DNA of 15,813 nucleotides from Chloroflexota bacterium (GTDB taxonomy: Bacteria; Chloroflexota; Limnocylindria; Limnocylindrales; CSP1-4): NCBI GenBank assembly GCA_021789355.1, contig JAJYJR010000061.1:1-15813 (forward strand), in the 5' to 3' direction. Below the pieces are notes generated by a model. It ran no database searches, had not been told where the DNA came from, and saw only the letters and a program-made list of their open reading frames with translations. Shown in pieces: positions 1,039-15,813 of this stretch (its first letter is position 1; each line of letters opens with the position of its first letter). Made by a program: the position numbers and the translations under genes.

Positions 1039-1935
1039 ATGACGATGTCTGAGACCAATGGCAAGGACGAAACGCACCTCGTTGCCCCGGAAGCCGGGCT
1101 GTCCACCGCGGATCGGCGCGACCGGGTGCTGGAGCTGCTGCGGCGGAGTCGCTTCGCGTCCGTGGCCAACATGGCCACCCAGTTCGGCGTCTCCGAGGTC
1201 ACCATCCGGAACGACCTGGACGTGCTGGCGGAGGAAGGGCGGATCCAGCGCGTGCGCGGGGGTGCCATCCACCGCGCGACCGTGAGCCTCGAGGCGTCCT
1301 TCGAGCAGGCCGAGGAGACACTCGCGGAGGAGAAGCGGGCCATCGCCGCGGCCGCGGCCGCCCTGGTGGAGAGCGGCCAGACCGTGCTCCTGGATTCGGG
1401 AACCACGACGGCGGCCATCGCCCGTGCGCTGGCAGCCAGGACGGACCTGCACGAGGTCACGGTCTTCACGAACGGCCTCCGCGTCGCCATGGAACTGGAG
1501 CCGGCCATCCCCCAGATCACCGTCGTGCTGGCGGGCGGCGTCCTCCGCAAGCAGCAGCATTCCCTCGTCAACCCCTTCGGGCTGACCGTCTGGGACCGCA
1601 TCCATGGCCACATCGCATTCCTGGAGTGCCAGGGGATCGACGCGCAGGCGGGCGTCACCCACTCGAACATCGCCGAGGCCGAGATCAAGCGCGCGATCCT
1701 GAGCTCGGGCCGGTATCGCGTCGTGGTCGCCGACGGGTCGAAGGTGGGGCAGGTGGGCCTGGTCCACGTGTTCGGGATCGACGAGATCAGCCTGCTGCTC
1801 ACGGACAGGACCGCAGATCCCGGGGCCATCGCGGCCCTCCAGGACTGCGACCTAGATGTGCGCGTGGCCGGCGAATCCGCCGCCGATGACGTGCACTCGC
1901 TCCCCCAGTTCCTGGAGCACGGGCGGCACTCCTGA
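1039..1935 (+). CDS. DeoR-family transcriptional regulator of sugar metabolism
   Basis: This 298-residue regulator has an N-terminal DeoR winged helix-turn-helix (about residues 26-80). The recognition region is GVSEVTIRNDLDVLAEEGRI (50-69), followed by RVRGGA. The C-terminal DeoRC sugar-phosphate sensing domain includes LLDSGTTTAAIARAL (117-131), VFTNGL (142-147), LAGGVLR (164-170) and VADGSKVG (230-237). Such proteins are usually repressors released by a phosphorylated sugar. The ATG at 1039 follows GGGG at 1031-1034; a second in-frame ATG at 1045 is equally possible. The frame stays open upstream to 790, but that extension is low-complexity and not homologous. The C-terminus is somewhat longer than the usual 250-260 residues. 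It sits just upstream of, and parallel to, the ABC transporter operon, which is its most likely target. The ligand is unknown. Confidence 0.93.
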   Translation: MTMSETNGKDETHLVAPEAGLSTADRRDRVLELLRRSRFASVANMATQFGVSEVTIRNDLDVLAEEGRIQRVRGGAIHRATVSLEASFEQAEETLAEEKRAIAAAAAALVESGQTVLLDSGTTTAAIARALAARTDLHEVTVFTNGLRVAMELEPAIPQITVVLAGGVLRKQQHSLVNPFGLTVWDRIHGHIAFLECQGIDAQAGVTHSNIAEAEIKRAILSSGRYRVVVADGSKVGQVGLVHVFGIDEISLLLTDRTADPGAIAALQDCDLDVRVAGESAADDVHSLPQFLEHGRHS

Positions 1936-2183: not shown

Positions 2184-3530
2184 ATGGAGGTACCGGTGGG
2201 CGCGCGACGATGGGCCGCCGTGGCCGTCATCGCCGCGATCACGTTCGGGGCGTGCAGCTCCGGAACGACGTCGACCACATCCGCACCCGCGGGCAGCCAG
2301 GCTGCTGCCGCGAGTGCCGCGGCCGCTTCGACCGCGGCGGACCAGCCCGCGAAGATCGTCTGGTCGACCTGGGGCGACCCGACCGAGCTCGCCCGCTTCA
2401 ACGACTTCGACAAGGCGTTCATGGCGCGCCACCCGAACATCCAGGTGGTGCTCCAGCCCGTCGCTGACTACACGGACTACCACACCAAGCTGCTCGCCGA
2501 GCTGACGTCCGGAACGGCGCCCGACGTCTTCTACGTGGGCGACGACAACATCGGCAAGTTCGTCGACGCCAACGTGCTCATGCCCCTTGACAGTCTCATG
2601 GCGGCGCCCGGCAGCCTGGCGCCCGCCTCCAACTACTTCCCGGGGCTGTTCGGCGCCGCCGTCAAGGACGGCGTCACGTACGCCGTGCCGACCGACGACA
2701 ACCCCGACATGTTCTGGTACGACAAGAAGGCGCTCGCCGCCGCCGGCATCACGCAGGACCCGGCCACCCTGGCCGCGAACAACCAGTGGACGATCGCGAC
2801 GTTCCTCCAGATGGTCGACAAGCTGAAGGCGAAGGGCCTCGACGGCGCGATTTTCTGGAACTACTGGTCGACGCACTACAGCTGGATCAGCGCGAGTGGC
2901 GGCACGAGCTGGGACGCGCAGGGCAACTTCGTCCTGCCCAACGACCCCACGTCGGTGGCGGCGCTCCAGACGCTCGCAAGCCGCTTTCAGGACGGCAAGT
3001 CGTTCATCGTGGCGGACACCGTCCCGGATCCCGGACCCGACACGCTCTTCGTGACCCACAAGGCCGGCTTCTACGTCCAGGGCCGCTACACGATCGGCAC
3101 CGTCAAGTCGGCCGGCGACCCACAGGACTATGACGTCGTCCGCTGGCCGACGGTCGATGGCAAACCGCGCCCGACCGGTGTCGCGGCCGCCTACCTCGCG
3201 ATCAACAAGAACACCAAGAACCAGGCAGCCGCCTGGACCTTCTTCCAGGAGTTCGTCGACGCCCAGGGGCAGATCTTCCGCCTGCAGGGTGGTGGCAACG
3301 CCGTGCCGTCCGTCAAGGGTGCGGACTCGGTGGTGCTCGACGGTTACCCGGCGCACGCCCAGGCCATGCTCGACGCCCGCAACATCGGCTTCGAGGATCC
3401 GCCCGGCGAGCAGCGCCACCCCGGCCTCTCGACCGACATCAGCGACGCCATGCTGCAGCTCTACCAGGGCAAGACGACGGTCGCGCAGACCATCACGAAG
3501 ATGCAGCAGCTCGTCGCCGCGGCCAAGTAG
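2184..3530 (+). CDS. Carbohydrate ABC transporter substrate-binding lipoprotein
   Basis: This 448-residue family-1 extracellular sugar-binding protein (UgpB/MalE-like) would capture a sugar or oligosaccharide outside the membrane and deliver it to the two permeases encoded downstream. Residues 1-23 form a lipoprotein signal peptide (R-R, then a hydrophobic stretch). The lipobox is TFGAC, with the lipidated Cys at 24. A Ser/Ala/Thr-rich linker runs to about residue 55. The mature domain starts KIVWSTWGDPTE and contains ELTSGTAPDVFYVGDD, typical of the first lobe. Later segments such as AAYLAINKNTKNQAAAWTFF match the second lobe of this family. The start is set by a strong ribosome site. It is first in the operon and is followed by a long hairpin that may raise its mRNA level relative to the permeases. 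Ligand cannot be read from sequence. Confidence 0.93.
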   Translation: MEVPVGARRWAAVAVIAAITFGACSSGTTSTTSAPAGSQAAAASAAAASTAADQPAKIVWSTWGDPTELARFNDFDKAFMARHPNIQVVLQPVADYTDYHTKLLAELTSGTAPDVFYVGDDNIGKFVDANVLMPLDSLMAAPGSLAPASNYFPGLFGAAVKDGVTYAVPTDDNPDMFWYDKKALAAAGITQDPATLAANNQWTIATFLQMVDKLKAKGLDGAIFWNYWSTHYSWISASGGTSWDAQGNFVLPNDPTSVAALQTLASRFQDGKSFIVADTVPDPGPDTLFVTHKAGFYVQGRYTIGTVKSAGDPQDYDVVRWPTVDGKPRPTGVAAAYLAINKNTKNQAAAWTFFQEFVDAQGQIFRLQGGGNAVPSVKGADSVVLDGYPAHAQAMLDARNIGFEDPPGEQRHPGLSTDISDAMLQLYQGKTTVAQTITKMQQLVAAAK

Positions 3531-4541: not shown

Positions 4542-5435
4542 ATGACGGCCCAGGGCAAGGTCCTCGCCGATGTCCGCCCGGTCCCGGGCAGGAGACGCCG
4601 CCGCCCCCTGCTGCGGGGTCGGACGCTGGCGCTGCACGGGAGCCTGAGCGTCTTCGCGTTCCTGATGGTCTTCCCGTTCATCTGGATGCTGCTGACCTCG
4701 TTCAAGTCGCTCGGGCAGATCCTTCGCGACCCCCTGGCCCTGTGGCCGAACCCGTGGGTGGCAGGCAACTACGCCCAGGCATGGAACTCCCTGCCCTTCG
4801 CCGGCGCCTACTGGAACAGCGCGTACATCTGCGCGCTCGTCGTCGCCGGAACCCTGATCACCGCCGGGATGGCGGGCTACGCGTTCGCGCGGCTCGAGTT
4901 CCCCTTCAGCCGCGTCCTGTTCCTCGTGTTCCTGGCCACGCAGATGGTTCCCCCGCAGGTCACAATCGTGCCGCTCTACGTCCTCCTCAGCCGGATGGGC
5001 TGGATCGACACCCACCTCGCGCTCATCGTGCCCGCTGCCCTGTCCAACCCGTTCGCCGTCTTCCTGGTCCGGCAGTTCGTGCGCTCGCTGCCGGTCGACC
5101 TGGAGGAGGCGGCCATGATCGACGGCGCCGGGCGTGGTCGGATCTTCCTCTCGATCGTGCTGCCGAACCTCGGCCCCGGCCTCAGCGCCCTGGGCATCAT
5201 CGTGGCGCTGAACACGTGGAACAGCTTCTTCTACCCGCTGGTGCTGCTGAACTCCACGGACAAGTTCACGCTGCCGCTCCTGCTCGCGCAGTTCCAGGGG
5301 CAGTACGGGGGCATGAACTACGCCCTGGTCATGGCCGCGTCCGTCATCTCCGTGGTGCCCATGCTGATCGTCTTCGTGATCGGGCAGCGGCGGATCATCG
5401 CCAGCATGGCGCAGTCGGGCCTGGGCGGCCGGTGA
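4542..5435 (+). CDS. Sugar ABC transporter permease (MalG/UgpE-like)
   Basis: This 297-residue partner permease has a basic N-terminus (GRRRRRPLLRGR, 16-27) and six predicted membrane segments. The EAA loop is LEEAAMIDGAGRGRIF (187-202) followed by VLPNLGPG. The MVFPFIWMLLTSFK opening and the NTWNSFFYPLVLL segment (224-236) are characteristic of MalG/UgpE/LacG subunits, as is Q-M-V-P-P-Q in the middle. It starts 9 bases after the first permease. Its TGA overlaps the GTG start of the glycosidase gene, so the two are probably translationally coupled. This ties the glycosidase to the imported substrate. Confidence 0.95.
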   Translation: MTAQGKVLADVRPVPGRRRRRPLLRGRTLALHGSLSVFAFLMVFPFIWMLLTSFKSLGQILRDPLALWPNPWVAGNYAQAWNSLPFAGAYWNSAYICALVVAGTLITAGMAGYAFARLEFPFSRVLFLVFLATQMVPPQVTIVPLYVLLSRMGWIDTHLALIVPAALSNPFAVFLVRQFVRSLPVDLEEAAMIDGAGRGRIFLSIVLPNLGPGLSALGIIVALNTWNSFFYPLVLLNSTDKFTLPLLLAQFQGQYGGMNYALVMAASVISVVPMLIVFVIGQRRIIASMAQSGLGGR

Positions 5436-7180
5436 GCGTCCGCCCGGCCGGCGCCCCACGGCGGGGACCGCGCCTGGACCTCGTCGCGCACCCGTTCACG
5501 CAGCCCGACTCGCGACTGGTCCTGCGCCGGCCGGGCGAGTACGGGCCGCTGCAGCTCGGCCTCGCCGAGTACGAGCGGCCGCTCACGTCGTGCCTCGCGC
5601 TGGATGCGCTGGCCGTGGTCGGCGATGGCGGGGGCGAGGTCTCCGACTGGGATGCGACCCCGGACTGCCTCCGCGCGGCGAACGGCGCGTCGATCGTCCC
5701 GGCCGACCCGGCGACCTGGAGCATCACCCTACCGGCCGGCTGCTCCCTTCGCATGGGGCTGGTCGAGCCGCCCGTCCTCGGTCCGGCGGCGGGCGAGGCG
5801 GCGACGGCCGTGGCAGGTCAGCGGGTGGCCTGGCGGGCGGAGGGGGCCGACGTGCGACAGGTCCTCGGTCCCGACGGCCATGCCCTCACCATCACCGCGG
5901 GCCTCCTTGCCGATGCCCGCGTCCTGGTGCAGGTGGGCGACCTGCAGGCCCCGGGATCGCTCCACGGGCGGCCCCACGCCGAACTAGCGGACGCCGCGGC
6001 CGCGGGCTGGGCCGCCTGGTTCGAGCGCCGGCCCGCGGTGCGCCCGGACCTCGCGGGGATGGCCGACCTCGCGTGGTGGGTCCTGGCCGCGAACCGGATC
6101 CGCCTCGGCGGAAACGGGCCGTCGATCATCGCGCCCTCGAAGCTCGGCTACGTCGCGGCGTGGCAGTGGGATTCGTACTTCATCGCGGCCGGCCTGCGGC
6201 ACGGTGATCCCGAGGAGGCATGGCGCCAGGTCGCGTTCTTCCTGGAGCACGCGCTGCCGGACGGGCAGCTCCCCGACGTGGTCTCCGACCGCGGTGCGAT
6301 CTACCGGGTCGGCGATCTGCCGCCGGACGAGATCGGCACCGACCCGCCCGACGTCCCGGTCACCAAGCCGCCCCTGGCCGCGTGGGTCGTGTGGCTCGTC
6401 CACGAGGCGCTCGGGGATCCGGACCGCGTTGCCTGGGCACTGCCCCGCCTGCGCGCCCTCCAGGACTGGTGGGCGACGCGCAGCGACCTCGACGGGGATG
6501 GCCTCTCCGAGTATCTCCACCGCTACTCGTCCGGCCTCGACGACAGCCCCCTGTTCGACCGTGGGGTGCCGGCGGAGACCCCGGACCTGAACGCCTACCT
6601 CGCGGTGGCGGACGACCGCATGGGGCGCATGGCGGTGCTCCTCGGGCAGACGGACGACGCCACGGCCTTCGACGCGAGCGCGCGGCGGCGGGTCGACGCG
6701 CTCGTGTCCCGGCGCTGGGATCCCGCGCGGCGGCGGTTCCGGGCGATGGCCACGGATCGCGAGATGGATGTCCTGACGCCGTTCAACCTCATGCCCCTGC
6801 TCACCGGGCGACTCGCTCCCCCGGTCGTGGCTGCCCTCGTCGAGACGCTCACCGAGCCGGGGCGCCTGTGGACGAGATGGCCACTCGCGACCGTCGCGGC
6901 GGACGAGGCGACCTTCGATCCCGACCGGATGTGGCGCGGACCGGTCTGGCTGAACGTCAACCGCCTCATCGTCGACGGGCTCCGCTCGTCGGGACGCGAG
7001 GATATCGCCCGGGAGCTCGCGGAGCGGAGCCTGGACCTCGTCGTCACCAGCGGCGGACCGTACGAGCACTGGAACCCGCTGACCGGCCGTCCCGCCGCGT
7101 CGGCAACGTCGGCGTTCGCCTGGAGCGCGGCGTGCTTCGTCGACCTCGCGGTGCTCGTCAGCGGCGCGACCGGGCGCTGA
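5432..7180 (+). CDS. GH63/MGH1-like (alpha/alpha)6-barrel glycoside hydrolase
   Basis: This 582-residue protein has a beta-rich N-terminal region (about 1-200) and an (alpha/alpha)6-barrel domain related to GH63, mannosylglycerate hydrolase and trehalase-like enzymes. Landmarks are SKLGYVAAWQWDSYF near the start of the barrel, then KPPLAAWVVWLVHEA and YSSGLDDSP (365-373). MWRGPVWLNVNRLI and PYEHWNPLTG (543-552) follow. By comparison with GH63/GH37, D370 would be the general acid and E545 the base. These are inverting enzymes acting on alpha-glycosides. There is no signal peptide, so it probably cleaves imported oligosaccharides in the cytoplasm. The GTG start overlaps the permease stop in GTGA. 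The frame is open far upstream to 4088, but that part is a shadow of the permeases. The substrate is unknown: alpha-glucoside, alpha-mannoside or another alpha-linked sugar. Confidence 0.85.
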   Translation: MSVRPAGAPRRGPRLDLVAHPFTQPDSRLVLRRPGEYGPLQLGLAEYERPLTSCLALDALAVVGDGGGEVSDWDATPDCLRAANGASIVPADPATWSITLPAGCSLRMGLVEPPVLGPAAGEAATAVAGQRVAWRAEGADVRQVLGPDGHALTITAGLLADARVLVQVGDLQAPGSLHGRPHAELADAAAAGWAAWFERRPAVRPDLAGMADLAWWVLAANRIRLGGNGPSIIAPSKLGYVAAWQWDSYFIAAGLRHGDPEEAWRQVAFFLEHALPDGQLPDVVSDRGAIYRVGDLPPDEIGTDPPDVPVTKPPLAAWVVWLVHEALGDPDRVAWALPRLRALQDWWATRSDLDGDGLSEYLHRYSSGLDDSPLFDRGVPAETPDLNAYLAVADDRMGRMAVLLGQTDDATAFDASARRRVDALVSRRWDPARRRFRAMATDREMDVLTPFNLMPLLTGRLAPPVVAALVETLTEPGRLWTRWPLATVAADEATFDPDRMWRGPVWLNVNRLIVDGLRSSGREDIARELAERSLDLVVTSGGPYEHWNPLTGRPAASATSAFAWSAACFVDLAVLVSGATGR

Positions 7181-7197
7181 GCCGTTCCGGAGCGCCC
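7172..7197. terminator. Bidirectional hairpin between convergent GH63-like and GH42 genes
   Basis: GGGCGCT (7172-7178) pairs with AGCGCCC (7191-7197) across a 12-base loop. The left arm includes the first base of the stop codon of the plus-strand glycosidase. The minus-strand beta-galactosidase ends at 7208, only 11 bases from the right arm. With 27 bases between the two genes, this stem is the only visible candidate to stop transcription from both sides. No T-tract is present. Confidence 0.5.
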
Positions 7198-7207
7198 ACC
7201 GACGTCG

Positions 7208-9232
7208 TCAGCGGCCGCTCCGGGGGCGCTGGAGCACGGCAACGCCCTGCGGCTCCAGGACGAGCCGTCCTTCGACGGGCCGGCCGCTGAGCAGGTCGTG
7301 CGACGGACGGTCTGTGCTCACGGTCGCCGGGCCATCACCGTGGTTGATCAGGAACAGGTACTCGGACGCCGCGTCGAGCCGTACGCGCGCCTCGACGCCG
7401 ACCGGCACGTGCACCGGCGCGGCGACACCGGCCCTGGCCGCCGCCCCCGCGAGCACAGTGGCCATGCCGTCCGGCTGCAGCACCGTCCCCAGGTGCCAGG
7501 CCTCGCCCGCCCCCACCCGGTTCACGGTCACGGCGGGCCCGCCCGCGAGCTCGCCGTCGGCGTAGCGCGCCACGATCTCCGCGGAGGACGGGACCAGGCG
7601 CTCCCGCCAGGTGGTGGCGCCGCAGCGCGTGCCGTCCCCGAACTCGACACCCACGGCCCCGGTCTCGATGGGCCAGTAGTCCTCGACCGTGAGGCCGAGG
7701 AGATCGCGCAGGAGCGCCGGGTGCGCACCCGGCGGCACCTGGTAGCGCGGATCAACGATCCCGCTGAACGGCCCCACGACGAGCACCGCGCCGCCGGTGA
7801 CGGCCGCCCGGACCTGGTCCGCCGTCCGTGCGTCGAGCAGGAACAGGTTGGGCGCGATGATGAGCCGGTACGCCGAGAGGTCGTCGGCCGGGTGCCGCCA
7901 GTCGACCGCGATGTTCGCCTCCCACAGGGGCCGGTACATGGCGAGCGCGAGCGGCCGGAACGCCAGGTCCGCGCTGGGGTGCCCCTCCTGCTCGAGGGCC
8001 CACCAGCTCTCCCAGTCGAGGAGGACCGCCGTCTGCGCGGGAGCCGCGCGCGATCCACGCACTGTGGCGAGCGCCTGCAGGCCCTGCCCGAGGCGCTCGA
8101 TGTCCCGCCATCCCGTCGTGTCGGTCCCCCCGGGCGGGAGCATTGCGCTGTGGAACGCCTCCGGCCCGCCTCGCGATCCGCGCCACTGGAAGAACAGGAC
8201 ACCGTCGGCGCCGTGCGCGACGGCCTGGAGGCTGCGGGCCCGCATGACGCCCGGCCGCTTGGGGATGTTCACCCGCCGCCAGTCGACGGCACCCGCGGCC
8301 TGCTCCATGAGCAGCCACGGACGCCCGTGGCCGAGCGATCGCATCAGGTCCTCGCTGAGGGCCGCCTCCACCGCGCCCCCAGGCTCCTCGGGGTACAGGT
8401 CGCACGACACGACGTCCTCGCGCGGCGCCCAGCGCCAGTGGTCGATCCCCTTGAAGAGGCGCATGAAGTTCGTCGTCACCGGGATCTCCGGGCACAGATC
8501 GAGCAGCAGCCGCCGCTCGCGCTCGAAGCACGCCAGTAGGGCATCCGACGAGAAGCGCCGGTAGTCGAGCTGCAGGGCCGGGTTGATCGGGCCGGGTGCG
8601 AGCCGGGGTGGCATGACCTCGCCCCAGTCGCCGTATCGACCGCTCCAGACGTCCGTGGTCCACGCGTCGTTGAGCGCCTCGAGGGACCCGTGGCGCGTCG
8701 CCAGCCAGTCGCGGAAGTGTGCCGCGGACACGTCGCAGTAGCACGCCTCGACATGGTCGCCGTACTCGTTCCCCACGTGCCAGAGCGCGAGGGCCGGGTG
8801 GCCACGGTAGCGCGCCGCCAGCGCGCGCACGAGGGTCTCGGCGGCGTCGGCGAAGGCCGGCGAGCTGGGGCAGACGTGCTGCCGGCTGCCGATGGCGTAG
8901 CGCCGGCCGTCGAAGGTCTGCGGAAGCGCGTCCGGGTGTGCCAGGGCGAACCACGGCGGTGGCGAGGCGGTGGCCGTGGCGAGATCGACCGCGATGTCGT
9001 TGGCGGCCAGCAGGTCGAGGATCCGGTCGAGCCACGCGAAATCCCAGCGATCGGGGCGCGGCTGGAGCCGTGACCACGCGAAGACGCCGACGGTGACGAG
9101 GTTGACCCCGGCGGCACGCATGAGCCGGACGTCCTCCGCCCAGACGTGCTCGGGCCACTGCTCGGGGTTGTAGTCGCCGCCGTAGGCCAGGCCCGCGGGC
9201 CGCGCGGGCCAGTGCGGACGTGCGGGGCTCAC
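7208..9232 (-). CDS. GH42 beta-galactosidase
   Basis: This 674-residue retaining beta-galactosidase of family GH42 would release terminal beta-galactose from oligosaccharides. The N-terminal TIM barrel starts GLAYGGDYNPEQWPEHVW, the standard GH42 opening, then VNLVTVGVFAWSRLQPRPD. The acid/base Glu is in WHVGNEYGD (E156) and the nucleophile in PWLLMEQA (E310), followed by NIPKRPGVMR. A trimerisation domain (about 390-600) and a small C-terminal beta domain ending near residue 674 follow. Length is normal. The GTG at 9232-9230 overlaps the dehydrogenase stop in GTGA and lies just before the homology. The frame stays open to 9808, but that is a shadow of the dehydrogenase. There is no signal peptide, so it is cytoplasmic. 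It is the last gene of a five-gene operon that starts with P-protein genes. Confidence 0.95.
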   Translation of the reverse strand: MSPARPHWPARPAGLAYGGDYNPEQWPEHVWAEDVRLMRAAGVNLVTVGVFAWSRLQPRPDRWDFAWLDRILDLLAANDIAVDLATATASPPPWFALAHPDALPQTFDGRRYAIGSRQHVCPSSPAFADAAETLVRALAARYRGHPALALWHVGNEYGDHVEACYCDVSAAHFRDWLATRHGSLEALNDAWTTDVWSGRYGDWGEVMPPRLAPGPINPALQLDYRRFSSDALLACFERERRLLLDLCPEIPVTTNFMRLFKGIDHWRWAPREDVVSCDLYPEEPGGAVEAALSEDLMRSLGHGRPWLLMEQAAGAVDWRRVNIPKRPGVMRARSLQAVAHGADGVLFFQWRGSRGGPEAFHSAMLPPGGTDTTGWRDIERLGQGLQALATVRGSRAAPAQTAVLLDWESWWALEQEGHPSADLAFRPLALAMYRPLWEANIAVDWRHPADDLSAYRLIIAPNLFLLDARTADQVRAAVTGGAVLVVGPFSGIVDPRYQVPPGAHPALLRDLLGLTVEDYWPIETGAVGVEFGDGTRCGATTWRERLVPSSAEIVARYADGELAGGPAVTVNRVGAGEAWHLGTVLQPDGMATVLAGAAARAGVAAPVHVPVGVEARVRLDAASEYLFLINHGDGPATVSTDRPSHDLLSGRPVEGRLVLEPQGVAVLQRPRSGR

Positions 9233-9990
9233 GCGATACCGCCGCCATCCACCACGAGCGACGTCCCGGTCACCCACGCGGCGCCGTCCGAGGCGAGGTA
9301 CAGGATCGCCCGGGCGATGTCCTCCGGCGTGCCGAGGCGGGCGAGCGGACGCTCGGCGGACGACGCCAGGAACGTGTCCTCGTCGACGCCGAGCTGGCGC
9401 GCCTCCGCGCGCAGCATCGGCGTGTCGGTGTCGCCGGGGCAGACGGCGTTGACGCGGATGTTCTGGGAGCCGTGATCGATCGCCATCGCACGGGTCAGGT
9501 TGACGACCGCGCCCTTGGACGCGCAGTAGCTGACCGCCTGCGGCCCGCCCTTGAGCCCCCACCCGGACCCGAGATTGACGATCGCCCCGCCGCCGCCCTC
9601 GGCCATCCGCGGAACCGCGTGCTTGGCCATGAGGAAGACCGACTTCAGGTTCACGGCCAGCACGCGGTCCCAGTCCTCCTCGCTGGTCCCGACCACGTCG
9701 GCGCGCCGGATGATGCCCGCGCAGTTCACGAGCACGTCGAGACGACCGAACGCGGCCACGGTCTCCTCGACGCTGCGTCGGCAGTCGGCGCTGGCCGTGA
9801 CGTCGCACCGCAGCGCGAGCACGCGCCCGCCTTCCGCTGCGATCGCCTCGGCGGCACGCCTCGCCCCGTCGAGGTCCACGTCGACCACCGCGACGGCGGC
9901 TCCCTCGGCCGCCAGCAGGATCGCGGTCGCCCTCCCGATGCCGGACGCGCCGCCCGTGACGATCGCCGATCTGCCGTCCAGGGTACCCAT
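9229..9990 (-). CDS. Short-chain dehydrogenase/reductase (SDR), classical type
   Basis: This 253-residue NAD(P)-dependent oxidoreductase of the classical SDR family has the cofactor motif TGGASGIG (12-19). The NCAG motif is at 89-92. The catalytic tetrad is N114, S142, Y155 and K159 (Y-C-A-S-K). PG at 185-186 leads into the substrate loop, and the C-terminus is LVVDGGGIA. An Asp at the end of strand 2 (D37 in VVDVD) points to NAD(H) rather than NADP(H). The ATG at 9990 is preferred over ATG 10005 because GGGAGG lies 5 bases upstream. It starts 19 bases after the kinase stop and overlaps the beta-galactosidase. Sugar or polyol oxidation is likely from context. Many SDRs of this kind are annotated as 3-oxoacyl-ACP reductases or glucose dehydrogenases, and sequence alone does not decide. 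Confidence 0.93.
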   Translation of the reverse strand: MGTLDGRSAIVTGGASGIGRATAILLAAEGAAVAVVDVDLDGARRAAEAIAAEGGRVLALRCDVTASADCRRSVEETVAAFGRLDVLVNCAGIIRRADVVGTSEEDWDRVLAVNLKSVFLMAKHAVPRMAEGGGGAIVNLGSGWGLKGGPQAVSYCASKGAVVNLTRAMAIDHGSQNIRVNAVCPGDTDTPMLRAEARQLGVDEDTFLASSAERPLARLGTPEDIARAILYLASDGAAWVTGTSLVVDGGGIA

Positions 9991-9995
9991 GCGTG

Positions 9996-10001
9996 CCTCC
10001 C
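9996..10001 (-). promoter_or_regulatory. Shine-Dalgarno site deciding the SDR start
   Basis: GGGAGG reads on the minus strand from 10001 to 9996, five bases before ATG 9990-9988. It falls inside the reading frame begun by the upstream ATG at 10005, which has only an AAGG directly abutting it. The spacing therefore favours the downstream ATG. Confidence 0.7.
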
Positions 10002-10009
10002 GCATACCT

Positions 10010-11188
10010 TCAGGCGACGGCCACCGGGACGATGGCCCGCTCGCGATATCCCGTGATCACCGTGATCGTCCCCTGCAGCTGCGCGTCGAGCTCCGCGTCG
10101 CCGGTGTCGACGAGCAGCGGCCGGCCGCCCAGCTCGGCGAGCTTGCGCGGCGTGGCCACCACGATGATGCCGTCCGCCCGGGCCGCGCGAAGGACCGCGG
10201 ACGAGATCGGCTGGTTCCCCCGGCCGAACAGGAACCCCTGCCCTCCGACCGGGGTGACCACGACGTGGGCCGGCCCGTCCCCGATGGCACGCAGCAGCGC
10301 GTGCTCGCCGCCGTCCGCGACCACGACGCGCGGCTGACCGTTCCGCCATTCCACGACGTCGACGCCTACGAGCGTCTTCGCCACGCCCAGGCGCTCGGCG
10401 ACCGCCCGGACGCTCGTGCCGGGCCCGAGCACCCACGGCCTCTCCCTGTCCAGCTCGTCGAGGACGGCGGCGGCGATCCCCGCGAGGGCCGTCACCTCGC
10501 CGGGTGGTGACGGCGCCTTGCGGCTCTGCACCGCCCTGCCCCGCGGCACGCGGAGATAGCCGTGCAGGGCCGGTCGCACCTCGCCGCTTCGGTAGGCATC
10601 CTCGTCCAGGTCCAGCACCTCACGTTCCTCGGTCCGCCGGGACCTCGAGGCGAGCCACTCGGCGGCGACCCGTCCGGCCGCCGCCGGGCCCGTTGCGAAC
10701 ACCGCCGACTGGATCTTCACCCCGGCCGGGATGCCGAGGACCGGGACCGCGTCCCCGACGGCCGCGTGGACGTCGCGCGCGGTCCCGTCACCGCCGGCGA
10801 ACAGGAGCAGGTCGACGGCCTGCTCGGCCATGGCGCGCGCCGCGCGCCGGGTGTCCTCGGCCGTGGTGCGGACCGCCACCGCGTCGGACAGGATCTCCAA
10901 CACGCCGACACCCGCGTCGAGCGCCGGCTCCAGGCCCATCGCGCCGCGGGGGACGGAGAACACGGGCGACGCGAGGCGGGCGGGCCACGCCGCGAGGATC
11001 GCGCGCAGCGCCTCCGCCGCCCGGAAACCAGCCTGCGGCTTCGCGCCCATCGCCAGGGCCCTCCGGGCCGTCCCACGACCGTCGGAGCCCTTGAGCCCCA
11101 CTCGGCCGCCCAGCCCGGCGACGGGGTTGACGATCAGGCCGATCCGGACCGGCGTGGTCGGACCTCGTCCCGCGGCCTCTTCACCCAT
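10010..11188 (-). CDS. AcoX-like ATP-NAD kinase family protein (COG3199)
   Basis: This 392-residue protein belongs to the predicted polyphosphate/ATP-NAD kinase family that includes AcoX. The N-terminus has RIGLIVNPVAGLGGRVGLKG (15-34), the signature that separates COG3199 from ordinary NAD kinases. The diacylglycerol/NAD-kinase nucleotide motif GGDGTARD is at 132-139, and GIPAGVKIQSAVFATGP at 152-168. The C-terminal beta domain contains VTPVGGQGFLFGRGNQPIS and LLVDTGD. The predicted reaction is phosphorylation of NAD to NADP or of a related small molecule. AcoX itself has no firmly assigned role in acetoin operons. The ATG at 11188-11186 overlaps the GcvPB-like stop by 8 bases. The frame is open to 11365, but homology starts after the chosen ATG. 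Placement next to P-protein and SDR genes suggests cofactor supply or a dedicated metabolite kinase. Confidence 0.88.
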   Translation of the reverse strand: MGEEAAGRGPTTPVRIGLIVNPVAGLGGRVGLKGSDGRGTARRALAMGAKPQAGFRAAEALRAILAAWPARLASPVFSVPRGAMGLEPALDAGVGVLEILSDAVAVRTTAEDTRRAARAMAEQAVDLLLFAGGDGTARDVHAAVGDAVPVLGIPAGVKIQSAVFATGPAAAGRVAAEWLASRSRRTEEREVLDLDEDAYRSGEVRPALHGYLRVPRGRAVQSRKAPSPPGEVTALAGIAAAVLDELDRERPWVLGPGTSVRAVAERLGVAKTLVGVDVVEWRNGQPRVVVADGGEHALLRAIGDGPAHVVVTPVGGQGFLFGRGNQPISSAVLRAARADGIIVVATPRKLAELGGRPLLVDTGDAELDAQLQGTITVITGYRERAIVPVAVA

Positions 11189-12863
11189 CGACCGGCGCGC
11201 CGGTGGCGGCCACCGCTTCCGACGATGCCGCTGCCGACGCCGCGTGCTTCCGGCGGTACGCGCGCCAGGTGATCGCCCAGCGACCGGGATCGTCGAACCA
11301 GGACTGGTCCACCCTGTGGATCGTGCTCGCGTGCGGCGCCGTCCGCACCGTCTCGGGCGATTCACAGGCCTCCCGGGCCGCCACGCGGAGCATCGCCGCG
11401 TACTCGTCGAGATCGGCGCGCGAGTACGACTCGGTCGGCTCGAGCGTCATCGGCTCCGGGACGACGAACGGGTGATGGCTCGTCCAATAGTGCGTGCCGA
11501 AGTCGGCCATGCGGTACCCCAGTTCCTCGCTGTGCACGCCGGTGGCCTCCGTCAGCCCCTCCCAGCTGTAGCGCACCTGCTCGATCCGTCGCCGGCCGGC
11601 CGCATACGGCATGCTGACGCCCGGGATCTCCAGCACCCTGGCGAGCAGGTAGTTGTTGTTGAGCACCGCCGTCTCGGCCACCGCGCGCAGGCCGTCCGGC
11701 CCGAGGCTGCGGATCCACGCGTACGCCCGCACGAGGTTCGGCGCGACCCCGTACCAGGGGCGGGTCTTGCCCACGCTCTGGGGACGGTCATGGTCCAGCC
11801 GGAACCGGTCGCCGTCGCGCTCGACGGTGGGAGCCGGCAGGAACGGGGCGAGCTCGGCCGTCACCCCGCAGGCACCCGCGGCCGGGCCGCCCGAGCCGTG
11901 CGGCGTGGAGAAGGTCTTGTGCAGGTTGAAGTGGCACAGGTCGAAGCCAGCATCCCGGGCGCGCGTGATGCCCAGGATCCCGTTGGCGTTGGCCTGGTCG
12001 TAGGCGCAGAGCCCGCCCGCCTCGTGCACCAGGCGCACGAACGCGTCGATCTCCGGGTTGAAGATCCCGGTGTCCTCGGGGTTCGTGATGAGCAGGGCGG
12101 CCGTCCGTTCGGAGACCGCCGCGCGCAGCGCGTCGAGCGAGGGACGGCCCGTCTCGGCGTCCGGGTAGAGCGTGATCACGCGGTAGCCGGCGACCTTCGC
12201 CGCGGCCGCGTTGGACGGGTGGCTGAAGATCGTGGTGATGACCTCGTCGCGCCGGCCGGCATCACCCCGGGCTGCGTGGTAGGCGCGGATCATGGCGACG
12301 TTCGCGTAGATCGCCGACGACCCGGCGCCTGGCTGCAGCGACACGCGGTCCATCCCCGAGATCTCGGCGAGGAACGCCTCCAGGCGCCACATGATCTCGA
12401 GGATCCCCTGCACGGTGGACGGGTCCTGCAGCGGATGCAGCTCGGTGAGCTTCGGGGACCGGACCAGCTGGTCGTTCACCTTCGGCGAGTACTTCATCGT
12501 GCAGGTCCCCTGGCCGACGTCGATGTTGAGGTCGACCCCGAGGTTCTCCTGCGACAGGCGGTCGAAGTGGCGCAGCACGTGCAGCTGGGCGAGCTCGGGG
12601 AGCGCCGGAGGGGTGGCCCGCCTGGCGCTCGCGGGAAGCAGGGCCGCGGGATCGCCCACGGCCTCGCGGATCCCGGGCTCGACCGGCGGGAGGAGGACTC
12701 CGCGGGCACCCGGCGTGCCGAGCTCGAAGATGACCGGCTCGTCCCAGCTGGCCTGGTGGAACCGCCGCGGGAACGGCCTGGGCCCGATGGGCCCGTCCGG
12801 TCCGGCCGCCACCGCGGCGCCGGGGATGTCCGCCACGGTGTCGTGCCCGTCGCGTGCCGTCAC
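11181..12863 (-). CDS. Divergent glycine dehydrogenase (P-protein) subunit 2, GcvPB-like
   Basis: This 560-residue fold-type I PLP enzyme is related to the C-terminal half of glycine dehydrogenase. The PLP lysine is K316 in HFNLHKTFSTPHGSGGPAAG. TCTMKYSPKVND (120-131), EISGMDRVSLQPGAG (167-181) and LEPTES also match GcvPB. Several hallmark segments differ. The usual AHGTNPASA is SHPSNAAAA (214-222), TNPNTLGLF is TNPEDTGIF, and YDGANLNA is YDQANANG. An N-terminal extension of about 40 residues is also unusual. The GTG at 12863-12861 overlaps the GcvPA-like stop in GTGA. The frame is open to 13244 but only as a shadow of GcvPA. With the GcvPA-like protein it should form a heterotetramer that decarboxylates an amino acid. 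Whether glycine and lipoyl-GcvH are the partners is doubtful, and no gcvT, gcvH or lpd is visible. Confidence 0.85.
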   Translation of the reverse strand: MTARDGHDTVADIPGAAVAAGPDGPIGPRPFPRRFHQASWDEPVIFELGTPGARGVLLPPVEPGIREAVGDPAALLPASARRATPPALPELAQLHVLRHFDRLSQENLGVDLNIDVGQGTCTMKYSPKVNDQLVRSPKLTELHPLQDPSTVQGILEIMWRLEAFLAEISGMDRVSLQPGAGSSAIYANVAMIRAYHAARGDAGRRDEVITTIFSHPSNAAAAKVAGYRVITLYPDAETGRPSLDALRAAVSERTAALLITNPEDTGIFNPEIDAFVRLVHEAGGLCAYDQANANGILGITRARDAGFDLCHFNLHKTFSTPHGSGGPAAGACGVTAELAPFLPAPTVERDGDRFRLDHDRPQSVGKTRPWYGVAPNLVRAYAWIRSLGPDGLRAVAETAVLNNNYLLARVLEIPGVSMPYAAGRRRIEQVRYSWEGLTEATGVHSEELGYRMADFGTHYWTSHHPFVVPEPMTLEPTESYSRADLDEYAAMLRVAAREACESPETVRTAPHASTIHRVDQSWFDDPGRWAITWRAYRRKHAASAAASSEAVAATGAPVDG

Positions 12864-14254
12864 GCCAGCACCTCCCCCAGCGCGTCGGCCAACCGGTCGA
12901 TCTCCGCCTGCGTGCGCACCTCCGTGACGGCCACCAGGGCCGCCTGGCCGAGTTCCGGGAACTGGCCGGACAGGTCGGCGCCACCCAGGATCCCCCGGTC
13001 CAGCAGCGCGCGGTTCAGGTCGGCGACCGTGCGCCCCGTCCCGGTGAAGTCGGCGACGAACTCCTGCACGTGGTGGCTGTGCGCGAAGGGGATCCGGACA
13101 CCCGGCAGCGCAGCCAGGCGCCGCATCGCGTACCGCGTCCTGGCCATCTCCGACTCGCCGAGCTCGCGCATTCCCTGCGGCCCCATCAGCGCGAGATAGA
13201 CGCCTGCCGTGATCCCCCACAGGGCGGCCGCCGTGCCCACCCATTCGTTGCCTTCCTCGCGAAGGGCGAACGAGGTCCGCTCGTACGCCACGTCGCCGAA
13301 GCCGTACTCGCCCGGGACCCGCGTCGGGGCGATCCCGAAGAGCCGGGATGGGTACTGCATCACGATCCGCGGGTCGTCGTGCGAGGCGATGAACCCGCCG
13401 TGGCCGCCGCCGAAGTGCTGGTGGATCCCCAGGGGCTGGATGTCCCCGCAGGCGATGTCGGCCCCCGCGGTGGCCGGTGGCGCCAGGACGCCCAGCGTGG
13501 ACGGATCGACCGAGACGACCGCGAGCGCGCCCGCCGCGTGTGCCATCGCGACGACCTGCCCCAGCGCGGTCTCGACCACGCCGAGGAAGTTGGGCTGCTC
13601 CACATAGACGGCCGCGACGTCGTCGGCGAGCAGCGCGGCCAGTGCGGCGCGGTCCGTCTCACCGGTCGCCCCGTCGAACGGGATCCGCTCGATCCGCAGA
13701 TCGGGTCGGCAGTAGTCGGTCATCTTCGAGAGCTTGTCGCTGCCGACCGCGTCCGTCACGAGCAGGCGCGTGCGACCGGTGACCCGTGCTGCCATGCGGA
13801 GTGCCGTCGCGGCGGCTTGGAAACCGTCGTAGACAGGGACGTTTACGACGTCCATCTCGAGCAGCTCGCCCATCATTGAGCAGTACTCGAACAGGGCCTG
13901 GAATCGCCCGTGGTCCTCGTACGGCTCACCGGCGTAGGCCGTCAGGAACTCCGCGCGACCGTTGATCTCGTCGCAGACTGCGGGCACCTGGTGCTCGTAG
14001 CAGCCCGCCCCGAGGAAGCTGACCAGTTCGCGAGTCGAGCGGTTCCGGTCGAGCAGCCCACCGACCTCCCGGACGAGCTCGGATTCCGAGCGCAGTGCCG
14101 GCGCGAGTGCCAGTGGGCGCCCGAGGCGCAGCCGCTCGGGGATCTCCGAGTACAGCTCGTCGATGGTCTCGGCGCCCACGGCCTGCAGCATCCCGGCCCG
14201 GACGTCGGGAACCGAGTTGGGGATGTAGGGGTGGACGGCCCACCGGTACGACAT
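12860..14254 (-). CDS. Divergent glycine dehydrogenase (P-protein) subunit 1, GcvPA-like
   Basis: This 464-residue protein aligns over its length with the N-terminal half of glycine dehydrogenase: HPYIPNSVPDVRAGMLQAVG (8-27), then IDELYSEIPERLRL and LVSFLGAGCYEHQVPAV. Later come VVNVPVYDGFQAAATAL and GDIQPLGIHQHFGGGHGGF. The most conserved canonical motifs are altered. The usual TAYTPYQPEVSQG reads TAYAGEPYEDHGR, and the invariant block REQHIRREKATSNICT reads approximately ERTSFALREEGNEWVGT. It therefore belongs to a distinct subfamily and may act on another amino acid or carrier. ATG 14254 is supported by GGGAGGG 5 bases upstream. It is the first gene of the operon that ends with GH42, and it overlaps the GcvPB-like gene by 4 bases. 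Confidence 0.84.
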   Translation of the reverse strand: MSYRWAVHPYIPNSVPDVRAGMLQAVGAETIDELYSEIPERLRLGRPLALAPALRSESELVREVGGLLDRNRSTRELVSFLGAGCYEHQVPAVCDEINGRAEFLTAYAGEPYEDHGRFQALFEYCSMMGELLEMDVVNVPVYDGFQAAATALRMAARVTGRTRLLVTDAVGSDKLSKMTDYCRPDLRIERIPFDGATGETDRAALAALLADDVAAVYVEQPNFLGVVETALGQVVAMAHAAGALAVVSVDPSTLGVLAPPATAGADIACGDIQPLGIHQHFGGGHGGFIASHDDPRIVMQYPSRLFGIAPTRVPGEYGFGDVAYERTSFALREEGNEWVGTAAALWGITAGVYLALMGPQGMRELGESEMARTRYAMRRLAALPGVRIPFAHSHHVQEFVADFTGTGRTVADLNRALLDRGILGGADLSGQFPELGQAALVAVTEVRTQAEIDRLADALGEVLA

Positions 14255-14259
14255 GCAAG

Positions 14260-14266
14260 CCCTCCC
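14260..14266 (-). promoter_or_regulatory. Shine-Dalgarno site of the GcvPA-like gene
   Basis: GGGAGGG on the minus strand ends five bases before ATG 14254-14252. It is a strong site that fixes the start and marks the beginning of the five-gene minus-strand operon. Confidence 0.75.
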
Positions 14267-14347
14267 TCGTCGGCGCGTCCCTACGTCACGTCGCGGTGCG
14301 GCCTCCTCGATGGCTTTTGATAGCGCAAACGACGAAAGGCCCTCTGA

Positions 14348-14368
14348 TTACGATAATGCTGCCGTCAA
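14348..14368 (-). promoter_or_regulatory. Candidate promoter/operator of the gcvPA-like operon
   Basis: Reading the minus strand, TTGACG (14368-14363) is followed 7 bases later by TATCGTAA (14355-14348), set in ATTATCGTAAT with short inverted arms ATTA/TAAT. This is an AT-rich island in an otherwise GC-rich gap about 94 bases before the GcvPA start. The same TATCGTAA follows TTGACA by 8 bases upstream of the ABC operon. The spacing does not suit a standard sigma-70 promoter. A regulator site or a non-standard promoter is possible. Confidence 0.35.
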
Positions 14369-14398
14369 GCGACCATTGGCCCGCAGCGCTTGCCGATA

Positions 14399-14442
14399 CG
14401 ACGGGCCGGCGCCCGTCGACCTCCGAGGGCCACCGGCCCTCG
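14399..14442 (-). terminator. Two tandem hairpins between the aldolase remnant and the gcvPA-like operon
   Basis: CGACGGGC (14399-14406) pairs with GCCCGTCG (14411-14418) over a 4-base loop. CGAGGGCC (14424-14431) pairs with GGCCCTCG (14435-14442) over a 3-base loop. Both are perfect 8-bp GC-rich stems separated by 5 bases. They lie downstream of the rhamnose genes (minus strand) and before the AT-rich promoter island of the next operon. They are the best candidates for ending the rhamnose transcript. No T-tract is present. Confidence 0.5.
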
Positions 14443-14479
14443 AGCGCGCCCGACCGGCGCTAACACCTCCGACCCGGGC

Positions 14480-15486
14480 TCAGCCCACATGCTCGAGGCG
14501 ATCCCGTTCGGGCCGGATCACGTGGCGGTCGGACGCCATGCCGTGAGCGTTGGCCCCCTGCGGCAGAACGCAGGCAGACCGCCGTGTCCTCGGCGCGCAG
14601 GCACGGCCTGCCGGTCTTGAGCGGGCGGGGCCCCATGCCCGCTCGGTCCGAGCGGATGGACCCTTGGGCATCGCGGCCGACATCCCGAACGTCTCGATCA
14701 CCGCCCGCAGCTCGTCCGGCGAGAGCCCTTCGGCCCCGGCCTCCGGCGACGAGATCCATGTACTCGTAGCGAGCCGCCGTCTCTGCGTACTCGATCGGGT
14801 CCACCCCCCGGGTCACCGAGACCGACGAGCGGGCCATCACCCCGTGCTTCCCCAGATGACCATGCGGTGGGTCCGGAGCCGCTCGACGTTCGCCGCCATG
14901 AGCTGCCCCGATCCCGGCAACATGAACGGCAGGAGCCCGATGCCGGCCGCGAGGTTGATCACCGTTTCTGGTTCCCAGCGCATGAGCCGCTGGTTGAGCC
15001 GGGCCTCGTCGCGGTAGGCGGGGACGTGGCTGAGGTACATGAGGTGGGGCGGCTGGGCGTGCACGATGGCGTGGACGTTCGTGCCCGTCCGCTCGACCAC
15101 GTCGGCGTGCACCGCGAGGTGCGAGTTCCACTCGCTCGTCAGCGTGTCAAAGCGGCGCATCGGCGAACTGAACAGCGTGCCCGTCTCGCCCCCGAGTGGA
15201 TCTCGACCACCCCGAGGGGGAGCGTCGGATCACCGGCGATGTCCCCGCAGGCGTCTCCCCGACCCGGTCACGACCACGTGCGATCCGGCGAACTCGGGCA
15301 CCGGTATCGGCAGCCTGATCTCCTCCACCATCGGAACTGCCGCCGCGGATCGAGGGGCCAAGCCACCCAGATCGAGATGTTCCCGGCTGCGCCTTCACTG
15401 GCGTCGAGCCCGGCGACGCGACGCCCCGCCTCACCGATCGCTGTCAGCAGTTCACCCAGTTGAGGATAGGGTTCCTTGACGGCCAT
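14480..15486 (-). pseudogene. Rhamnulose-1-phosphate-type class II aldolase, broken by five single-base indels
   Basis: The start is clear: ATG 15486 with AAGGAG 5 bases upstream, encoding MAVKEPYPQLGELLTAIGEA and then LDASEGAAGNISIW. Pieces in other frames follow in the correct order for an aldolase of about 275 residues. They are MVEEIRLPIPVPEFAGSHVV, DIAGDPTLPLGVVEIHSG, TSEWNSHLAVHAD, HAIVHAQPPHLMYLSH, KHGVMARSSVSV, EYAETAARYEYMDL and LSPDELRAVIETFGM. The Zn-ligand region (H-A-x-V-H-A-Q) and the later K-H-G are intact. Frame changes fall at about 15333, 15243-15246, 15189-15193, 14850-14853 and 14734-14737. Each is explained by one base lost from or added to a short G/C run. The end is uncertain; the last frame stops at 14480. 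It follows rhamnose isomerase by 31 bases. The cause may be recent decay or sequencing error. An intact protein would split rhamnulose-1-phosphate (or a similar sugar phosphate) into DHAP and lactaldehyde. Confidence 0.85.
14618..14643. repeat. Inverted repeat near the end of the aldolase remnant
   Basis: GAGCGGGC (14618-14625) pairs with GCCCGCTC (14636-14643) over a 10-base interval that itself contains GGGGCCCC. It lies just after the last recognisable aldolase residues (FGM, near 14680). It may be a terminator if the true stop codon has been lost to another indel. No stop is seen before it in any minus frame as the sequence stands. Confidence 0.35.
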
Positions 15487-15517: not shown

Positions 15518-15813
15518 TCATCCCCAGCCTGCCGGCGATCCTCCGGCTCGGGCCGCGACCCGAGCCTCGGCCTCGCCGCTCTCGAGGTACGCGCGATACG
15601 GATCCGCCGGCAGCCCGCGTGCCTTGCGCAGCTCGGCGAGGACAGGGCGCACGTCGGTCGCGAAGGCGTCCGTGAGCGCGCTGTTCGCCTCCAGCACGTC
15701 GCCCGCCGCCTGCGCCGCCAGGAGCGCCTCGCGATCCACCAGCAGGGCCTTGGCGAACGCCTCCTGCAGGTTCATGACCGAGCGGATCATGGCCGGGATC
15801 TTCGGCTCGATGT
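15518..15813 (-). CDS. rhaI: L-rhamnose isomerase (RhaI-type), C-terminal fragment
   Basis: The last 98 or so residues of a minus-strand gene whose start lies beyond the right edge. The fragment reads IEPKIPAMIRSVMNLQEAFA, then KALLVDREALLAAQAAGDVL, DAFATDVRPVLAELR and ARGLPADPYRAYLESG. This matches the C-terminus of the RhaI-type (Pseudomonas/Gram-positive style) L-rhamnose isomerase, a metal-dependent TIM-barrel enzyme converting L-rhamnose to L-rhamnulose in the cytoplasm. The Lys in I-P-x-M-I-R-S context is near the end of the barrel. The aldolase gene follows 31 bases later in the same direction. This is the standard order for a rhamnose-use operon, so a rhamnulokinase gene may be found to the right. 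The fragment is too short to exclude another sugar isomerase of the same family. Confidence 0.82.
   Translation of the reverse strand, partial: IEPKIPAMIRSVMNLQEAFAKALLVDREALLAAQAAGDVLEANSALTDAFATDVRPVLAELRKARGLPADPYRAYLESGEAEARVAARAGGSPAGWG

Follow-up and report, generated by a model that had tools for sequence, protein, structure and literature searches.

The 15,813-nucleotide stretch analysed here (the window; contig JAJYJR010000061.1 of the Chloroflexota bacterium assembly GCA_021789355.1) carries a five-gene operon whose first three genes, we think quite probably, form a catabolic module: an enzyme dependent on pyridoxal 5'-phosphate (PLP), built like the glycine cleavage P-protein from GcvPA and GcvPB subunits and acting without H-protein or lipoate, together with a small-molecule kinase from the superfamily of NAD kinases and diacylglycerol kinases and usually a dehydrogenase. 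The fold and parts are known and their combination is conserved; the chemistry probably differs from the one known. The five genes are as follows.

12860..14254, minus strand: GcvPA-like subunit, 464 amino acids (aa); PF02347 at 5.3e-55
11181..12863, minus strand: GcvPB-like subunit, 560 aa; PLP lysine in NLHKTF kept
10010..11188, minus strand: COG3199-type kinase, 392 aa; GGDGT motif
9229..9990, minus strand: short-chain dehydrogenase/reductase (SDR); PF13561 at 1.8e-69; alternative in-frame ATG at 10005
7208..9232, minus strand: GH42 beta-galactosidase-type glycoside hydrolase, 674 aa; PF02449 at 6.8e-140, with PF08532 and PF08533

The five-gene operon is real. The coordinates and overlaps given in a preliminary description, which had seen five same-strand genes with overlaps of 4, 8 and 4 bases and one 19-base gap, were reproduced exactly, the gap between kinase and SDR being 19 bases if the SDR starts at the ATG at 9990 or 4 bases if it starts at 10005. 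G+C at third codon positions is 0.91-0.94 in every one of the five frames, and all five genes therefore read as coding. Pfam assigns GDC-P to the GcvPA-like protein, GcvP2_C and the class-V aminotransferase fold to the GcvPB-like protein, NAD_kinase and NAD_kinase_C to the kinase, adh_short_C2 to the SDR, and Glyco_hydro_42 with its M and C domains to the last product. Scanning window positions 7100-14500 for the sigma-70 consensus gave no promoter, with 0.1 expected by chance, and the single terminator-like match in the same interval lies inside the GH42 gene (0.7 expected by chance); neither result means much at such G+C.

We compared the window with other loci that carry a P-protein pair of this kind, here called operon-type, 75 in all with the window; eight were found through the kinase (L024, L027, L028, L042, L050, L052, L053 and L061) and, besides the window, the other 66 through GcvPB, one of which (L190) is the same stretch as the kinase-found L022. 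Genes were called with a custom codon-usage script rather than a standard caller, and neighbouring genes were named by reading their translations. Linkage was counted over 73 loci, with the short contigs L028 and L124 set aside, against 20 canonical control loci from 20 of the 27 GcvH-bearing genomes that also hold an operon-type pair. Within 6 kb of GcvPB, the kinase is present in 71/73 operon-type loci versus 0/20 canonical ones, an SDR in 57/73 versus 0/20, and GcvT and GcvH in 0/73 versus 20/20; the P-protein pair thus stands apart from gcvT and gcvH, as the preliminary description had asked, and the linkage that it proposed to look for elsewhere is kept far beyond one genome. The finding that it named as refuting its reading, a linkage confined to this genome, was therefore not obtained. 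Among the 66 GcvPB-found loci the kinase lies within six genes in 64, the misses being L174 and L179 (contig edge). Gene order is similarly stable across the 75 loci: GcvPA directly precedes GcvPB in 72 and the kinase directly follows GcvPB in 60, five loci have the order kinase-GcvPA-GcvPB, and an SDR belongs to the same run in 54. The window SDR is 74% identical to that of L124 and 60% identical to the module-adjacent SDRs of L157 and L144.

The proteins themselves differ from canonical P-proteins in conserved residues. We compared 52 operon-type GcvPB and 49 operon-type GcvPA sequences with 16 and 12 canonical ones, respectively. The operon-type GcvPB proteins keep the PLP lysine, K316, together with H215 and D289, which we take to be the PLP-site histidine and aspartate. 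All 52 also have T120, P216, D264, E428, R431, W460 and H463; at positions 120, 216, 264 and 428 the canonical proteins have S, G, T and H (16/16 each), and at 431, 460 and 463 mostly V (13/16), P (15/16) and Y (13/16). In GcvPA, the EQHIR motif is found in 12/12 canonical and 0/49 operon-type sequences: the Gln328 position is Ser in 49/49, the equivalents of H371 and I372 are never His or Ile (0/49 each), and basic residues persist in a few, with Arg at the R373 equivalent in 4/49 and Lys at the K376 equivalent in 6/49. The second Tyr of YTPY, present in 11/12 canonical sequences, falls in a gap in all 49 operon-type ones; the GcvPA-like protein of the window shows this loss and the changed motif too. 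A study of human GLDC places I372, R373 and K376 at the modelled H-protein interface of a docking model, and lists Y161/Y164 among active-site residues (PMC7259800). We mapped these residue numbers onto the GcvPA motif stretch by letter and spacing; on that mapping, the EQHIR stretch would contain the modelled H-protein interface, and the docking motif would be changed in operon-type GcvPA. In the Pseudorhodoferax locus L053, the GcvPA-like gene at 11150-12552 is broken into two open reading frames that overlap.

In a quick maximum-likelihood tree built from 101 GcvPB sequences (68 operon-type, 33 canonical), all 68 operon-type proteins lie on one side of a single branch, with a Shimodaira-Hasegawa-like approximate likelihood ratio test (SH-aLRT) support of 100 and a stem of 1.0 change per column; the 33 canonical proteins, six of them kinase-near, lie on the other side. 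The tree omitted L164, L175, L176, L177, L181, L190 and L195, taken for near-duplicates by judgement, GcvPB calls below 430 aa and the canonical L200, L213, L214, L216 and L217; long branches occur inside both groups, so inner details are unsure. The window falls together with L124, L141 and L142 (support 82). A second operon-type sub-clade (SH-aLRT 100), comprising L050, L143, L149, L052, L053 and L145, has the order kinase-GcvPA-GcvPB, and several of its loci carry class-III aminotransferase, aldehyde dehydrogenase, 3-hydroxyacyl-CoA-dehydrogenase-like and IclR genes; it probably acts on a different substrate.

Synergistota commonly carry the operon-type pair; in the other groups drawn it turns up sporadically. 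Counting in each draw the centre genome among the matches, we found 44/149 genomes matching at E <= 1e-130 in the phylum of G006 (Fretibacterium), 15/398 in the family and 3/396 in the phylum of G001, 4/291 in the class of G008 (a Clostridiales genome) and, at E <= 1e-120, 3/398 in the phylum of G002 (Pseudorhodoferax). At 1e-100 the phylum of G001 gives 69/396, and the other matches at this level, at most 46% identical, were taken as canonical from identity rather than one by one. The nearest GcvPB found, at 85% identity, is from G213, in the phylum of a Microbacterium; among 27 genomes of its order G213 alone matches at E <= 1e-130.

We looked in the genomes for GcvH and for a second P-protein. 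Nine of the first ten had GcvH, and seven of the nine bacterial genomes among the ten carry a canonical P-protein besides the operon-type pair; G005 lacks both GcvH and a second P-protein. We then examined a further 32 of the roughly 68 matching genomes, chosen before the GcvH search with large contigs preferred. GcvH scored above cut-off in 27/32, and exactly the same 27 hold a second, canonical P-protein, which shares a contig with GcvH in 26 of them. The other five (G823, G853, G817, G870 and G822) showed no second P-protein and no GcvH above cut-off, the GcvH match of G853 being sub-threshold (19.8 bits, cut-off 22.2), and in all five the kinase adjoins the operon-type pair (L151, L152, L155, L168 and L169). 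Because G823 (2,630,170 bases), G817 (1,967,774) and G870 (3,585,187) are each essentially one contig, the absence of GcvH there is unlikely to be a gap. Lipoate machinery was sought in 19 of the 32, chosen after the GcvH search to comprise all five without GcvH and 14 with it: a lipoate ligase or octanoyltransferase was found in 0/5 versus 14/14, and lipoyl synthase (lipA) above cut-off in 0/5 versus 5/14, with a 20-bit match in G822. Within the reach of these searches, the pair in the five genomes must act without a lipoyl H-protein. H-protein independence of the operon-type pair is thus well supported by comparisons of sequences and genomes, and the pair is probably not a glycine-cleavage enzyme.

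Several observations pull the other way. The curated NCBIfam equivalog models accept both window proteins, GcvPA at 476 bits (cut-off 364) and GcvPB at 575 bits (cut-off 441), and the window GcvPB-like protein matches 1wyt_B at 8.6e-98; the case for something other than glycine cleavage therefore rests on finer features. In one draft genome, G006 (locus L042), GcvH is matched but there is no second P-protein, so an H-protein partner is possible in some genomes, and since lipA passes its cut-off in only 5 of the 14 GcvH-bearing genomes, a missing lipA says little by itself. Canonical P-proteins, too, can have the kinase near them, in archaea and on one Thermoleophilia contig (L008, L011, L012, L059, L070 and L077), and its role is therefore not unique to the operon-type module. 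The SDR is missing from the run in 21/75 loci. L174 (G867) has an operon-type pair with no kinase within six genes, and its neighbours, as read from their translations, include genes for a lipoate ligase, a dihydrolipoamide dehydrogenase and an acetoin-dehydrogenase-type E1.

The kinase, labelled COG3199-type here as in the preliminary description, has a GGDGT motif invariant in 33 sequences. Its description as an NAD-kinase relative holds at the level of Pfam domains (NAD_kinase and NAD_kinase_C) but is silent on substrate. Its only NCBIfam match, an NAD-kinase model, reaches 18.7 bits against a cut-off of 309. A sequence search for solved structures gave no convincing relative. In a confident predicted model (predicted local distance difference test score, pLDDT, 88.8; predicted template modelling score, pTM, 0.60) the N-terminal part is about as similar to DgkB as to NAD kinases and to SphK1, and the scores of some unrelated chains are not far below. 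In one Hadesarchaeal locus (L012, 3924-11125) the kinase lies near GcvT, GcvH, GcvPA and GcvPB, with formyl-THF-ligase-like and FolD-like genes as read from translations; in another (L011) it lies near a piece of GcvH at the contig edge, GcvPA and GcvPB. These loci suggest an older link between kinase and P-proteins. In the gammaproteobacterial loci L004-L040, lone kinase genes stand beside genes that we read as pdxB-like (15 loci) and yfcM-like (23 loci).

Compared with known systems, the operon-type pair is like Thermus thermophilus GcvPA/GcvPB (1wyt) in family, subunit split, the PLP lysine in NLHKTF and His215/Asp289, and unlike a P-protein of that type in its changed docking motif, its lost second YTPY Tyr, the replacement of the canonical HE pair, its invariant E428, R431, W460 and H463, and in having a kinase near and no GcvT or GcvH beside it. 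The archaeal glycine cleavage operons (Hadesarchaea L012 and L011) resemble it in having a P-protein pair with the kinase adjacent or near; they differ in that L012 has canonical residues as well as GcvT and GcvH next door, and neither locus belongs to the operon-type tree group. The kinase family takes its AcoX name from acetoin operons, and the AcoX/COG3199 proteins encoded there belong to the same family, a comparison made by label only; here, by contrast, the kinase is linked to a P-protein-like pair and not to acetoin dehydrogenase. We know of no proven function for AcoX or the module kinase and of no proven substrate for the COG3199/AcoX family. JGI annotates many relatives as 'predicted polyphosphate/ATP-dependent NAD kinase', and acoX is called a predicted NAD kinase in another report (PMC9676059). 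A search of open-licence papers found no description of the GcvPA-GcvPB-kinase module.

The last gene of the operon has a much narrower distribution. A GH42 gene lies in the module's run in 13/75 loci, namely the window and 12 Microbacteriaceae, and all five genes form one same-strand run in 12/75, the window and 11 others, the twelfth Microbacteriaceae locus (L134) holding these genes as well, with 421 bases intervening ahead of the SDR. We rejected chance adjacency of the five genes on these 12 runs together with the recurrence of GcvPA-GcvPB-kinase across phyla. The window GH42 has the catalytic, trimerisation and C-terminal domains (PF02449, PF08532 and PF08533) and is 43-49% identical to the GH42 proteins of the 12 Microbacteriaceae loci, where the gene comes first, at the 5' end, and not last, at the 3' end, as in the window; the block of ATP-binding cassette (ABC) transporter and MGH1-type genes is also differently placed. 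That the set was kept through rearrangement and divergence suggests a working link between the sugar genes and the module. The 12 GH42-bearing Microbacteriaceae form one clade, and L141 and L142, which group with the window, lack GH42, so the pattern could stem either from one founding event followed by loss or from GH42 having been gained twice; the contig of L124 ends before any GH42 position. A glycosidase thus recurs with the pair, as the preliminary description had wondered, in the window and these 12 loci, while the conserved core is GcvPA-GcvPB-kinase, usually with a dehydrogenase; breakdown of a galactosylated amine is accordingly one possible use of the module and not its definition. 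In other phyla the module adjoins amidohydrolases, M20 peptidases, aminotransferases and amino-acid or acid transporters. Within six genes, across the 75 loci, we counted amidohydrolases of one family in five loci, aldehyde dehydrogenases in five, class-III aminotransferases in four, NhaC-type transporters of three families in 10, 6 and 4, TRAP components in five and AGCS-type transporters in five.

We tentatively suggest, with slightly more doubt than confidence, that the whole operon-type P-protein branch consists of lipoate- and H-protein-independent PLP enzymes working with a COG3199-type kinase in a so far undescribed breakdown of hydroxylated amines, which in the window's lineage would arrive in sugar-conjugated form. 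As for mechanism, we find it most likely that the PLP complex acts on a hydroxylated amine or amino acid in series with the kinase and a dehydrogenase, no lipoyl acceptor taking part. In this lineage the ABC transporter would import the conjugate, and the MGH1-type and GH42 enzymes would strip its sugars. The SDR would oxidise the released hydroxy-amine, the kinase would then phosphorylate it, and the P-like PLP complex would break the product by C-C or C-O cleavage or by decarboxylation, with water or a proton replacing the lipoyl acceptor. Kinase and PLP phospho-lyase pairs handle hydroxylysine and phosphoethanolamine, and offer a precedent for this logic; the order and kind of the SDR, kinase and PLP steps proposed here are nevertheless doubtful.

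Other explanations share some of this evidence. One is that the window simply has an ordinary GcvPA/GcvPB beside sugar genes, its GcvH and GcvT being encoded elsewhere in the genome: both subunits exceed the curated cut-offs, GcvH occurs elsewhere in 27/32 genomes, and G006 has GcvH without a second P-protein. Those exact 27 genomes, however, hold a canonical P-protein whose contig GcvH shares in 26, the pair persists in five genomes where no GcvH or lipoate machinery exceeds its cut-off, and the docking motif is changed. A glycine riboswitch points the same way: a tandem one lies at 12980-13179 of L207, the canonical gcv locus of G1213, and none at L147, the operon-type locus of the same genome; the other six of the seven sources searched, namely the window, the operon-type L144, L146, L147 and L148 and the canonical L208, gave none, and because L208 too lacks one this contrast is only weak support. 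We regard ordinary glycine cleavage as highly improbable, and rejected it on the tree, the 0/73 linkage to GcvT or GcvH, the second P-protein and the missing GcvH and lipoate genes of five genomes. A different simplification would make the kinase a plain NAD kinase supplying NADP(H) to the SDR, with the pathway consisting of GcvPA-GcvPB and the SDR. The Pfam domains agree with this, and the predicted fold matches NAD kinases among others; yet the kinase is found in more of the 73 loci than the SDR (71 against 57), its NCBIfam score is 18.7 of 309 bits, and diacylglycerol and sphingosine kinases match about equally, so we consider this role improbable.

The sugar genes raise a separate question, as GcvPA-GcvPB-kinase-SDR and GH42/MGH1/ABC might be unrelated catabolic units, co-regulated or travelling together with no common substrate. 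The restriction of GH42 in the module's run to the window and one Microbacteriaceae clade (13/75), the grouping of the window with the GH42-less L141 and L142, which means that few events are needed, and the amidohydrolases, M20 peptidases, aminotransferases and acid transporters that adjoin the module elsewhere all fit such a division; against it, the same parts have been kept through rearrangement at just 43-49% GH42 identity, and we find two unconnected units unlikely, if far from negligible. At the other extreme, the operon might degrade glucosyl-alpha-1,2-galactosyl-beta-hydroxylysine, as in collagen, or a similar galactosyl hydroxy-amino acid, in which case the MGH1-type enzyme would take the glucose and GH42 the galactose, the kinase would phosphorylate the hydroxyl and the P-like PLP complex would eliminate the phosphate. 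The order of the glycosidases fits, AGCS-type (alanine/glycine symporter-like, as read) transporters lie near the module in 5/75 loci, and hydroxylysine is known to be handled by a kinase with a PLP phospho-lyase; but that phospho-lyase is of a different PLP family, and the archaeal association of the kinase with canonical glycine cleavage would be left unexplained. We consider this substrate highly improbable, and offer it as a single concrete test case.

A lipoate-independent role for the operon-type pair bears on annotation. Because curated models name the pair glycine decarboxylase, automated reconstructions would credit organisms in which no lipoate machinery was detected with a glycine cleavage step that is probably beyond them. 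If the pair does perform other chemistry, an old scaffold would have acquired a new PLP activity, and the pair's near-constant kinase partner would make the COG3199/AcoX kinase family directly testable and give a first clue to its substrate.

The operon is flanked in the window by the following genes, the last of which is convergent with it.

1039..1935, plus strand: DeoR-family regulator; PF00455 at 2e-44, PF08220 at 2.4e-13
2184..3530, plus strand: sugar-type ABC transporter substrate-binding protein; PF01547 at 1.3e-31; same protein cluster in L132 and L133
3597..4532, plus strand: ABC transporter permease 1; five best matches 58-64% identical
4542..5435, plus strand: ABC transporter permease 2; five best matches 65-68% identical
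5432..7180, plus strand: MGH1/GH63-like glycoside hydrolase; PF22422 at 1.6e-65

The five best matches of each permease all adjoin the operon in Microbacteriaceae. A homologue of the MGH1-like protein, whose own five best matches are 39-42% identical, accompanies the operon in eight Microbacteriaceae loci, giving a cluster of nine with the window. This arrangement is like the Bifidobacterium clusters for hydroxyproline-rich glycoprotein oligosaccharides, which combine glycoside hydrolase and ABC genes (PMC7263609), in pairing ABC import with successive glycosidases; the available part of that source mentions no P-protein-like pair or kinase. Upstream of the operon, an L-rhamnose isomerase gene, represented by its 3' end (15518-15811), precedes a rhamnulose-1-phosphate aldolase gene present only as pieces in different frames (14460-15460, minus strand), one of which (14837-15160) matches NCBIfam PRK03634 under the model cut-off; the pieces represent either a decayed gene or sequence errors.

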